From positions 1 to 42,192 of the forward strand of contig JAHFPN010000004.1 of assembly GCA_023269635.1 (NCBI GenBank): 42,192 nt of DNA, given 5' to 3'. Shown here piece after piece: positions 20,598 through 23,795 of this stretch. Under the pieces are notes generated by a model. That model ran no database searches. It was not told the DNA's origin and saw only the letters and a list, made by a program, of their open reading frames with translations. Origin of the DNA: Hyphomicrobiales bacterium (GTDB taxonomy: Bacteria; Pseudomonadota; Alphaproteobacteria; Rhizobiales; Xanthobacteraceae). Position 1 is the first letter of the stretch, and each line of letters begins with the position of its first letter. A program made the translations under genes and the position numbers.

Positions 20598-20820
20598 AAC
20601 TGAACCAATCGTTGCGCGTTCTGGCCCTTGAACGCAACCGTCCCTGCGCCCGCGCCGATTGGCGGGCGATCATGCCGGCGATCGCGGAAGATCATTCTAA
20701 TCCGGGAGCATTTCGCCATGCCGGCACGGCATGGCGGCATTGGGCGGGCCCCCGTTGTCGGCGGGCTCGCGGCGTGGCACTCGTCATCGCGCCGCGCGCC
20801 GGGCCGGCGGGGAAGCGACA

Positions 20821-22098
20821 ATGAGCGTCGAGTTAGCCGGACCAGGCGGGCGCGCGGGCATCGGCGTCATGACCGCGGTCGCGCTGGTGGGATCGCTTTG
20901 CGCGATCCACACCATGAGCCAATTCCTGCGCACCTCGATCGGGGTGATCGCGCCGGATCTCGCCCGCGAGGTCGGCTTGAGCGCCGCCGGGATCGGGCTG
21001 CTCGCCAGCGCCTTCTTCATGAGCTTTGCCGCCGCGCAGGTGCCGCTCGGCGTCGCCATCGACCGTTTCGGTCCGCGGCTGGTGCTCGCGATTTCGAGCG
21101 CGGTCGCGGTGATCGGCACGCTGGTATTCGCGACCGCAGCGTCGGCCGAGCTTCTGCTCCTCGGCCGCATCCTCACGGGCATCGGCTGCTCGAGCTTCTT
21201 CATCGCGCCGCTCACCATCTACTCGCGCTGGTTCGCGCCCGAGCGCTTCTCCACCGTGGTCGGCATCCAGCTCGGGGTTTCGAGCATCGGGACGCTCGCC
21301 GCCACCGCGCCGCTCGCCTTCGCCGCCGCCGCGTTCGGCTGGCGGGCGAGCTATCTCGCGGCCGCCGTCATCACCGCGCTGATCGGGTTCATGGTGTTCG
21401 TGATCGCGCGCGATTATCCGCCCGGCACGGTTCCGCCGGTGCGGCACGAGAGTCTCGCCGAGAGCCTGCGCGGGCTCGCGGTGGTCGCGCGCACGCCCTC
21501 GGTGCCGCGTCTGTTCGCCATGCATTTCTCCGGCTATTCGATCCTGGTGACCGTGCTCGGTCTGTGGGGCGGGCCCTATCTCGCGCACGTCTACGGCTAC
21601 GACCTCGAGCGCCGCGGCGAGCTTCTGTTCGTGCTCGCGGTCGCGAGCCTGCTCGGAAGTTTTGCCTGGGGTCCGATGGACCGGCTGTTTTCGAGCTACA
21701 AGCGGCCGGTGATCGCGGGCGCCGTAGTGACGATGCTGCTGCTGGTCTGGCTCGCCTATGTCGGCCGGCCCGGCGTCGGAACGCTGACGGTCTGGTTCGT
21801 CGCCTTCGGGATTTCCACCGCCTTTACGCCGCTCTTGACCGCGCACGGCCGCTCGCTGTTCCCGCCCGAATATGTCGGCCGCGGGCTGACGCTGCTCAAT
21901 CTCGGCACCATGAGCGGCGTGTTCGTGGTTCAGTTCGCGACCGGTCTCGTGGTCGACCTGTTCCCGGCCAAGGACGGCGTCTATCCGCTCGACGCCTATC
22001 GCGCGGCGTTCGCGGTGGAGGCGCTGGTGCTCGCGGTTTCGACGGCGATCTATCTCAAGGCGCGCGACCCGGCCCACGAGCAGGCACTTCCGGCCTAA
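20821..22098 (+). CDS. Major facilitator superfamily transporter
   Basis: A 425-residue inner-membrane carrier with about twelve hydrophobic helices. The MFS motif between helices 2 and 3 is seen as GVAIDRFGPRLVL, and helix 1 carries SQFLRTSIGVIAPDL, a pattern of the MFS_1 subgroup related to NarK/oxalate-formate-type carriers. The ATG at 20821 is preceded by GGGGAAG; the frame is open further upstream but that part is charged and unlike a membrane protein. The substrate is unknown. The gene lies next to the truncated binding-protein remnant, on the opposite strand from liv. Confidence 0.85.
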   Translation: MSVELAGPGGRAGIGVMTAVALVGSLCAIHTMSQFLRTSIGVIAPDLAREVGLSAAGIGLLASAFFMSFAAAQVPLGVAIDRFGPRLVLAISSAVAVIGTLVFATAASAELLLLGRILTGIGCSSFFIAPLTIYSRWFAPERFSTVVGIQLGVSSIGTLAATAPLAFAAAAFGWRASYLAAAVITALIGFMVFVIARDYPPGTVPPVRHESLAESLRGLAVVARTPSVPRLFAMHFSGYSILVTVLGLWGGPYLAHVYGYDLERRGELLFVLAVASLLGSFAWGPMDRLFSSYKRPVIAGAVVTMLLLVWLAYVGRPGVGTLTVWFVAFGISTAFTPLLTAHGRSLFPPEYVGRGLTLLNLGTMSGVFVVQFATGLVVDLFPAKDGVYPLDAYRAAFAVEALVLAVSTAIYLKARDPAHEQALPA

Positions 22099-22139
22099 GG
22101 GCTATTCGTCATCGCCGCGGACAATTTGGTATTGCTGCT

Positions 22140-22185
22140 ATGCGATTTTCGCATGGCTATTTGCTTGCTCATATTGCGTTGCAAT
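22140..22185. promoter_or_regulatory. Two palindromes in the AT-rich region upstream of the sRNA
   Basis: ATGCGA-TTT-TCGCAT (22140-22154) and ATTGC-GTT-GCAAT (22173-22185) are perfect inverted repeats in a stretch that is clearly lower in GC than its surroundings and full of TTGC words. CATATTG followed by TTGCA is also repeated directly (22170 and 22188). TTGC-N3-GCAA resembles the TGC-rich CTGC-N3/4-GCAG sites known for the polyhydroxybutyrate regulator PhaR. That link is inference. Confidence 0.4.
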
Positions 22186-22220
22186 GACATATTGTTGCAC
22201 TGCGATAGCGCGATGGCGTC

Positions 22221-22297
22221 GCGTTATCGCCGCCCTCCTTGGGCGTTTCCTCCCTAGACTTGGGCCGCTTGCTCCCGCAAGCGGCCCCTTTTCTTTT
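22221..22297 (+). ncRNA. mmgR: Small RNA of the alpha-r8/MmgR (suhB-motif) type
   Basis: The segment folds as two hairpins with a single-stranded TTTCCTCCCT (22246-22255) between them. The first stem is CGCCC-TCCTT-GGGCG (22231-22245). The second is an 11-bp stem (22262-22287) with a T-rich tail. The length of about 77 nt, the two-hairpin layout and the UUUCCUCCCU linker match MmgR of Sinorhizobium meliloti, a trans-acting sRNA that limits polyhydroxybutyrate granule and phasin accumulation. The 5' end is estimated from the family length, not from a promoter. I believe the Rfam family is RF00519, to be verified. Confidence 0.75.
22262..22297 (+). terminator. Rho-independent terminator of the MmgR-like sRNA
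   Basis: GGGCCGCTTGC (22262-22272) pairs perfectly with GCAAGCGGCCC (22277-22287) around a TCCC loop, followed by CTTTTCTTTT. It may also stop transcripts of the upstream MFS gene. Confidence 0.88.
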
Positions 22298-22313
22298 CGG
22301 CAGACCGGCTGAC

Positions 22314-23204
22314 CTATTCCGCCGCGTCGCGCATGGGCGCGATGCCCGCGGCGGTCACCGAAGCGAGCTTCCCCACCACCCGCGCGAGGTCGAGGCGCAC
22401 GCGCTCGAAGCGTGCGGTCCGCGCGTAAGAGCGCTCGTCCATGTAGAGCGCGCGGTTGATCTCGACCTGGACCGCGTGAAAACGCGCGGCCGGATCGCCG
22501 TAGTGCTCGGTGATGAAGCCGCCGGCATAGGGCTTGTTGCGCGCCACCGCGTAGCCGAGATCGCGCAGCGTCTCCTCGACGACGTCGCTGACCAGCGGCG
22601 CGCAGCTGGTGCCGTAGCGGTCGCCGAGCACGAAGTCGGCCCGCGGCCGCTCGTCGCGGCTGCTCGCGTTCGAGGGCATGGAGTGGCAGTCCACCAGCAC
22701 GGCGTGGCCATAGGCCTTCTGCGCATCCAAGAGCACCCGGCGCAGCGTGCGGTGATAGGGCTTGTAGTAGAGCTCGATTCTGCGCAGCGCCTCGTCCACC
22801 GGGAGCCGGCGATCATAGATCTCGCGCGAGTCACCGACCACGCGGGCGATGGTGCCGAGCCCGCCCGCGACCCGGAGCGAGCGCGTATTGGCGAAATTCG
22901 GCAGCCGGCCGTCGAACATGCGCGGGTCGAGTTCGTAGGGCTCCCGGTTCACGTCCAGGAACGCGCGCGGGAAATGCGCCCGCATCAAGGGCACCCCGAG
23001 CCGCACCGCGTCCGCGAACAGCTCGTCCACGAACGTGTCCTCGGAGCGGCGGAGCGTCGGCAGGTCCAGGCGCGTCATCGCCAGGAAATTCGCCGGGTAG
23101 GAGCGCCCGCTGTGCGGCGAGTTGCAGACCACCGGGCCCGCAAGCGCGGCCGGCTCCAGCACCTCGAAGGCGGGTACGAACTCGTCGACGATCTCGGCGC
23201 TCAT
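22314..23204 (-). CDS. N-formylglutamate amidohydrolase family protein (copy 1)
   Basis: A 296-residue FGase-family zinc hydrolase. Conserved stretches are VVCNSPHSGRSYP near the N-terminus, FLDVNREPYELDP, VLVDCHSMPS in the centre and VQVEINRALYMDE near the C-terminus. Characterised members hydrolyse N-formyl-glutamate to formate and glutamate in histidine breakdown (HutG-type), but many homologues outside hut clusters act on unknown formyl or acyl amino acids. No hut genes are nearby. The start ATG 23204 (MSAEIVDEF) is chosen because the upstream open frame is Arg/Pro-rich non-conserved sequence. A second family member lies at 28365. Confidence 0.85.
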   Translation of the reverse strand: MSAEIVDEFVPAFEVLEPAALAGPVVCNSPHSGRSYPANFLAMTRLDLPTLRRSEDTFVDELFADAVRLGVPLMRAHFPRAFLDVNREPYELDPRMFDGRLPNFANTRSLRVAGGLGTIARVVGDSREIYDRRLPVDEALRRIELYYKPYHRTLRRVLLDAQKAYGHAVLVDCHSMPSNASSRDERPRADFVLGDRYGTSCAPLVSDVVEETLRDLGYAVARNKPYAGGFITEHYGDPAARFHAVQVEINRALYMDERSYARTARFERVRLDLARVVGKLASVTAAGIAPMRDAAE

Positions 23205-23432: not shown

Positions 23433-23795
23433 ATGCCGAAAATTCTGCTCGCCGAAGACGACGGCGACATGCGTCATTTCCTCGAGCGGGCGCTCGCCAA
23501 TGCCGGCTACCAGGTGGTCGCCTTCGACAACGGCCGTTCCGCCTATCAGCGCCTGCGCGAGGAGCCGTTCGAGCTCCTGCTCACCGACATCGTGATGCCG
23601 GAGATGGACGGCATCGAGCTCGCGCGCAAGGCGACCGAGCTCGATCCCGATCTCAAGGTCATGTTCATCACCGGCTTCGCCGCGGTGGCGCTGAACCCGG
23701 ACAACAAGACGCCGAAGGACGCCAAGGTCCTGTCCAAGCCCTTCCACCTGCGCGATCTCGTGAATGAAGTGGAACGGCTGCTCAAAGCCGCTTGA
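23433..23795 (+). CDS. cpdR: Single-domain response regulator CpdR
   Basis: A 120-residue receiver domain without an output domain. The acidic pocket is AEDDGD near the N-terminus, the phospho-acceptor is Asp52 in LLTDIVMPEMDG, and the conserved Thr and Lys lie in MFITGFAAV and VLSKPFHLR. The sequence matches CpdR almost throughout. When unphosphorylated, CpdR brings ClpXP to the pole and primes it for cell-cycle substrates. The CckA-ChpT relay controls its phosphorylation. The ATG at 23433 follows a GGGGGGAG site; a 22-codon upstream extension is not conserved. Confidence 0.93.
   Translation: MPKILLAEDDGDMRHFLERALANAGYQVVAFDNGRSAYQRLREEPFELLLTDIVMPEMDGIELARKATELDPDLKVMFITGFAAVALNPDNKTPKDAKVLSKPFHLRDLVNEVERLLKAA

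Follow-up and report, generated by a model that had tools for sequence, protein, structure and literature searches.

The 42,192-nucleotide stretch of DNA analysed here (hereafter referred to as the window) contains a gene for a small RNA (sRNA) of the aR8/MmgR family, and we consider it probable that its product acts in trans, is repressed by PhaR through a double operator and serves as a brake on carbon storage. The family, RF00519 suhB in Rfam, is also known as the Makes More Granules Regulator. Judged by its sequence, the sRNA is an ordinary member of this known family, which tunes carbon storage in Alphaproteobacteria. The locus has the covariance signature and the anatomy of the family, together with a 5′ hairpin that covaries among relatives; its promoter carries PhaR-type boxes that are conserved at other copies of the gene; the partner genes are encoded in the same genome; and the presence of the family in a genome goes along with that of PhaR. 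That PhaR represses the gene, that the RNA depends on Hfq, that it represses translation and that it affects phasins and polyhydroxybutyrate (PHB) are inferences that we draw from work on S. meliloti and Caulobacter.

An aR8/MmgR sRNA gene between the MFS and FGase genes

The RF00519 (suhB/mmgR) covariance model matched the window at positions 22225–22301 of the plus strand, the match spanning the whole model (1–77 of 77) with a score of 69.1 bits, the gathering threshold being 41 (E = 2.4e-12), and the sole further Rfam match within the window was a tRNA. The first-pass annotation had proposed an MmgR/aR8 sRNA at 22221–22297 and had named the Rfam suhB/MmgR covariance model as the way to check it. 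The full-length match, far over the gathering score, bears out this proposal, as do the 10-mer core, the terminator and the neighbouring gene for N-formylglutamate amidohydrolase (FGase), all of which were found. The core, TTTCCTCCCT at 22246–22255 of the plus strand (UUUCCUCCCU in the RNA), is a predicted anti-Shine-Dalgarno seed that is unpaired in the fold. It is the 10-mer defined for the aR8 family, whose description in the literature draws on this core, a terminator and adjacency to FGase (PMC12559287).

As had also been noted, the sRNA lies between an MFS transporter gene and the FGase gene. The former (20731–22098, plus strand; PF07690, E 3e-41; start codon uncertain) is the upstream neighbour, and the latter (22314–23204, minus strand; PF05013, E 4.5e-77) is convergent. 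With the MFS frame stopping at 22098 and that of FGase ending at 22314, a gap of 215 bp contains the RF00519 match, and the description of the locus as otherwise empty is true in practice; a 359-aa plus-strand frame over the sRNA site is antisense to FGase.

The genome from which the window comes (2.67 Mb, 82.94% complete) has a single RF00519 copy over the cut-off, and four other matches in it were weaker, all below the cut-off of 41. A candidate second genomic copy (L002), with CCTCCC present, scored 27.8 bits against the cut-off of 41 and lacked the full 10-mer; we rejected it as a paralogue. Copies over the cut-off were found in 51 of 61 genomes (the genome itself and 60 relatives) and in 58 of 115 genomes sampled from the class. 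An exact scan for the core pattern returned at least 120 further stretches, which, among the 80 matches listed by name, were mostly from Hyphomicrobiales; the nearest FGase relatives among the named matches listed were those of a Xanthobacteraceae MAG (69.6%) and Rhodoplanes serenus (69.0%), which makes an origin of the window in this part of the order probable.

A conserved double PhaR-type box at the sRNA promoter

Two boxes that match YGCRNYGCR, the core of the PhaR motif known from S. meliloti (PMC12542648), are present at the predicted promoter. The distal box, TGCGTTGCA (22175–22183), lies between the predicted −35 and −10 elements, and the proximal box, TGCACTGCG (22196–22204), lies over the predicted transcription start; their spacing of 21 bp corresponds to two turns of DNA. 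The candidate −35 element is CTTGC (22164–22168, plus strand) and the candidate −10 element is CATATT (22188–22193, plus strand). Fifty-one copies of the gene with the 21-bp box spacing have in common CTTGC, about 17 bp and CATATT, the T, T and G of the −35 element being 92–96% conserved and each base of the −10 element 92–98%. A generic sigma-70 scan gave no promoter at its threshold for this site. The 21-bp box pair is unique in the window, with 0.22 expected. Taken in isolation, such a pair would be only mildly surprising, and the case for it rests on conservation.

Conservation was evaluated in copies collected with the pattern TTTCCTCCCTA-(0-2)-ACTT that had enough flanking sequence, duplicates and copies near locus ends being dropped. 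This survey set comprised 190 distinct copies, which came from 170 of the 195 loci, and boxes were counted in the region from −80 to +2. At least one box was present in 160 of the 190 copies (shuffle mean, 33.2), at least two in 87 (shuffle mean, 4.0) and a pair at exactly 21 bp in 51 (shuffle mean, 0.08); pairs at 20, 19 and 22 bp occurred in 15, 10 and 4 copies, respectively. Control pieces taken 200–400 bp upstream contained a box in 29 of 372 cases and a pair in none of the 372. Relatedness among the copies was handled by collapsing the upstream sequences at 60% identity into 108 groups, whose representatives included 79 with a box, 39 with at least two and 31 with a pair at 19–22 bp.

A convergent FGase gene lay within 1.5 kb of 126 of the 190 distinct copies, every FGase-linked copy being convergent. 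Among these 126, 78 had at least two boxes, 33 had one and 15 had none, and the corresponding numbers for the 64 copies without an FGase link, some of which were perhaps cut by contig or locus ends, were 9, 40 and 15. Thus, the double box mainly accompanies the FGase-linked copy (78/126 versus 9/64). Two loci (L049 and L183) each carry three clustered copies with differing boxes, and they provide a natural set for the study of promoter divergence among paralogues.

In the literature passages searched, no aR8 gene was described as having a double PhaR box. A review calls the mmgR dyad ‘conserved’ (PMC8401924), so part of the box conservation may already be in print.

A further dyad, ATGC-N7-GCAT, is located at 22140–22154 in the stretch 22137–22157, some 55 bp before the predicted start. 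Activation by NtrC is part of the MmgR-type function, and this dyad was the sole upstream element noted in that connection. An upstream dyad with this gap was found in 20 of the 190 copies, against 1.25 in shuffles. By its form it fits a LysR-type T-N11-A site, but a terminator scan also picks up this sequence as a stem resembling a terminator of the MFS gene.

Storage genes and candidate targets

The genome encodes PhaR, with PF07879 and PF05233 within one protein, as well as two Phasin_2 genes, a class I PHA synthase (PhaC) and Hfq. In the intergenic promoter between both phasin genes, upstream of the second one (L198 1444–1472; G000:C54), TATATT is flanked by two PhaR-type boxes with a spacing of 20 bp. 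The PhaR locus (L196; G000:C3) has two adjacent PHB_acc_N frames, a full PhaR (1141–1707) and a short frame (1722–1976). The second PHB_acc_N frame, of 85–93 aa, has the DNA-binding domain only, and similar adjacent pairs occur in some of the relatives, for example G036 and G021.

As a check, the first-pass annotation had suggested a prediction of pairing between the CCUCCC linker and the ribosome sites of phasin mRNAs. Duplexes of the core with the two phasin start sites had energies of −11.7 and −7.6 kcal/mol, which were no better than those with mononucleotide-shuffled sites (fractions 0.45 and 0.47); a review, in the passages available, reports no direct target for MmgR. The link to PHB storage that the first-pass annotation had drawn is strengthened by the upstream PhaR-type boxes and by the genes for PhaR, phasin, PhaC and Hfq in this genome, and finds no support in the phasin pairing. 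The start region of a response regulator gene (23436–23792) pairs with the core at −16.9 kcal/mol, a level found in 3% of shuffles, and this gene is a possible local target.

An alternative, to which we assign a chance somewhat short of even, is that the RNA is an aR8 sRNA with broad anti-Shine-Dalgarno targets, like SisA, and that any influence on PHB storage is a side effect. It takes the boxes as marks of a general control of carbon flux, in line with the many carbon genes that PhaR governs in S. meliloti (PMC12542648). Many of the mRNAs that SisA represses encode proteins other than phasins, and CrfA acts as a sponge for SisA (PMC12559287); here the phasin pairing is at chance and the neighbouring response-regulator start pairs better. 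Such a broad function is, however, less readily reconciled with the similar double box at the phasin and sRNA promoters of the same genome, or with S. meliloti, in which phasins and PHB go up when the core is lost (PMC8401924). A brake on storage remains the function that we favour.

Co-occurrence of the sRNA with PhaR

In the class sample, a copy over the cut-off was present in 54 of the 71 genomes that encode PhaR and in 4 of the 44 that do not (Fisher p = 5e-13, in a test that ignores phylogeny and genome size). The corresponding numbers in the set of relatives were 50 of 54 and 1 of 7. Setting aside the window's own genome, we then took the best copy from each of the 57 class genomes with one over the cut-off: a box was found in 36 of the 53 genomes with PhaR (10 with at least two), the examined copy in the other 17 of the 53 had none, and one of the four copy-bearing genomes without PhaR showed a box. 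The core was not located by its pattern in two of the 57 loci (L246 and L251) and was anchored on an earlier CCTCCC in another (L210); all three enter these counts as they came out. The only PhaR-less relative with a copy over the cut-off (L052) had no box.

These data bear on the identity of the regulator. The YGCRNYGCR repeats could be sites of another protein that binds TGC-rich dyads, since the motif is short, and a box is present in one of the five over-cut-off copies examined from genomes without a PHB_acc_N match. We regard this as unlikely: the repeats correspond to the core of the motif bound by PhaR in S. meliloti, which was tested by EMSA, including at mmgR (PMC12542648), PhaR and aR8 co-occur, and the phasin promoter of this genome has a similar box pair.

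Anatomy of the RNA

The 77-nt span of the first-pass annotation folds with an energy of −36.9 kcal/mol, against a mean of −19.7 for dinucleotide shuffles (z = −7.5). It had been described as having two strong hairpins. The second is an intrinsic terminator (22262–22297, plus strand; fold and terminator scan) with a GC-rich 11-bp stem at 22262–22287 and a T-rich tail, CTTTTCTTTT. The first, directly ahead of the core (22231–22245, plus strand), has only 5 bp and is not strong. One copy from another locus (L108) has an apparent insertion in the loop of this short hairpin.

Immediately before the 5-bp hairpin, the fold and the comparison with relatives revealed a 5′ hairpin of 13 bp with a 3-nt loop (22202–22230, plus strand), which is mostly beyond the Rfam model; the start of the model also falls inside the inverted repeat. 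The proposed start at 22221 truncates this hairpin, and the transcript is therefore probably longer than the 77 nt or so that had been assigned to it, with a probable length of roughly 92–97 nt. The single box tabled for S. meliloti mmgR lies at 3046679–3046699 and the RNA at 3046712–3046789, so that the box ends 13 bp before the RNA start; the same distance would place the start here at about 22202, which is the outermost base on the 5′ side of the hairpin.

To characterize this element in relatives, we folded segments from copies with a box 14–32 nt before the start of the Rfam model. Of 108 distinct segments, 106 were more stable than their own shuffle mean, with a mean energy of −16.1 kcal/mol versus −7.8 kcal/mol in shuffles. 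Pair-type tallies derived from each sequence's own fold were circular, and we replaced them with a count of paired cells under a fixed structure, which covered six length classes and left out the 34-nt class and rarer lengths. The paired cells exceeded those of all 500 column shuffles in four of the six classes (26, 33, 32 and 31 nt, with 20, 20, 11 and 8 sequences, respectively) and did not beat every column shuffle for the lengths of 28 nt (8 sequences) and 25 nt (7 sequences). The original description of suhB recognized no conserved parts beyond a short helix at the 5′ end and the terminator, and MmgR is predicted, according to a review, to have three stem-loops; the additional 5′ hairpin therefore extends a known feature. 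Its omission from RF00519 is relevant to anyone annotating or mutating aR8 RNAs.

The inverted repeat at 22202–22230 overlaps the proximal box, and S. meliloti MmgR is listed at 77–78 nt, which would agree with a DNA operator followed by a 77-nt RNA that starts downstream. We find this quite unlikely in view of the stem, which ranges between 6 and 14 bp across copies and shows changes on both sides, of the predicted −10 element, which sets the start at about 22200, and of the three stem-loops predicted for MmgR, which make a 5′ hairpin normal. The idea that the site is just the terminator of the MFS transcript or a chance structure, with no gene, accounts for the terminator-like element and is given practically no weight against the full-length covariance match, the conserved core and the promoter-like conservation across many copies.

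A model for storage-responsive control of the sRNA

In the model that we propose, transcription would begin near 22200–22202 from the promoter formed by CTTGC (−35) and CATATT (−10). PhaR (AniA), which senses stored PHB, would occupy the two operators 21 bp apart, one between the −35 and −10 elements and one over the start, and would keep the sRNA gene off as long as there are no granules. Accumulation of PHB would titrate PhaR, whereupon the phasin genes and the sRNA would both be switched on. The sRNA would present, in order, the 5′ hairpin, the short hairpin, the exposed UUUCCUCCCU and the terminator; with the help of Hfq it would pair via the core to ribosome-binding sites and dampen translation. 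Its targets would probably be phasins together with other carbon-metabolism mRNAs, and the outcome would be a brake on storage. Both repression of mmgR by PhaR and binding of PhaR to the mmgR promoter are described for S. meliloti (PMC12542648), where PhaR is also titrated by stored PHB and where phasin and PHB levels rise once the MmgR core is lost (PMC12542648, PMC8401924). In Caulobacter, the aR8 core pairs with the ribosome sites of mRNAs with Hfq, and a sponge RNA counteracts it (PMC12559287).

For the broader proposition that PhaR control of aR8 is an old, class-wide wiring of the Alphaproteobacteria, in which the FGase-linked copy of the Hyphomicrobiales evolved a double operator around the −10 element, spaced by two helical turns and with the second operator half inside the first RNA hairpin, we see the chances as evenly balanced. 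On this reading, a granule sensor would drive a phasin gene and its RNA brake through one operator layout, an arrangement that constitutes an incoherent feed-forward loop, and copies without an FGase neighbour, which more often have a single box, would respond less sharply to storage. PMC12559287 does not settle if a role in carbon metabolism is common to all aR8 RNAs or confined to a part of them; our promoter survey predicts storage control for copies that carry PhaR boxes, most of all for FGase-linked copies that have a pair of them.

Comparison with known systems

The sRNA shares with S. meliloti MmgR the 10-mer core, the terminator, the RF00519 match, a PhaR-type box between the −35 and −10 elements and the presence of phasin and PhaR genes. 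It differs in having a second box over the start, whereas the S. meliloti table gives one for mmgR, and in its longer 5′ hairpin, with a predicted RNA of 92–97 nt compared with the 77–78 nt listed for MmgR. Caulobacter crescentus SisA, an aR8 RNA, likewise has the core, the FGase neighbour and the Hfq-type anti-Shine-Dalgarno seed (PMC12559287); as described there, Caulobacter has four siblings without a common upstream motif, whereas the incomplete genome studied here has one copy over the cut-off. The arrangement of the boxes resembles that of the S. meliloti phaP1 and phaP2 promoters, each of which has two PhaR boxes, the boxes here being PhaR-type by sequence. The reported phaP1 and phaP2 boxes flank the −35 element and start 18 and 28 bp apart, whereas those described here flank the −10 element and are 20–21 bp apart.
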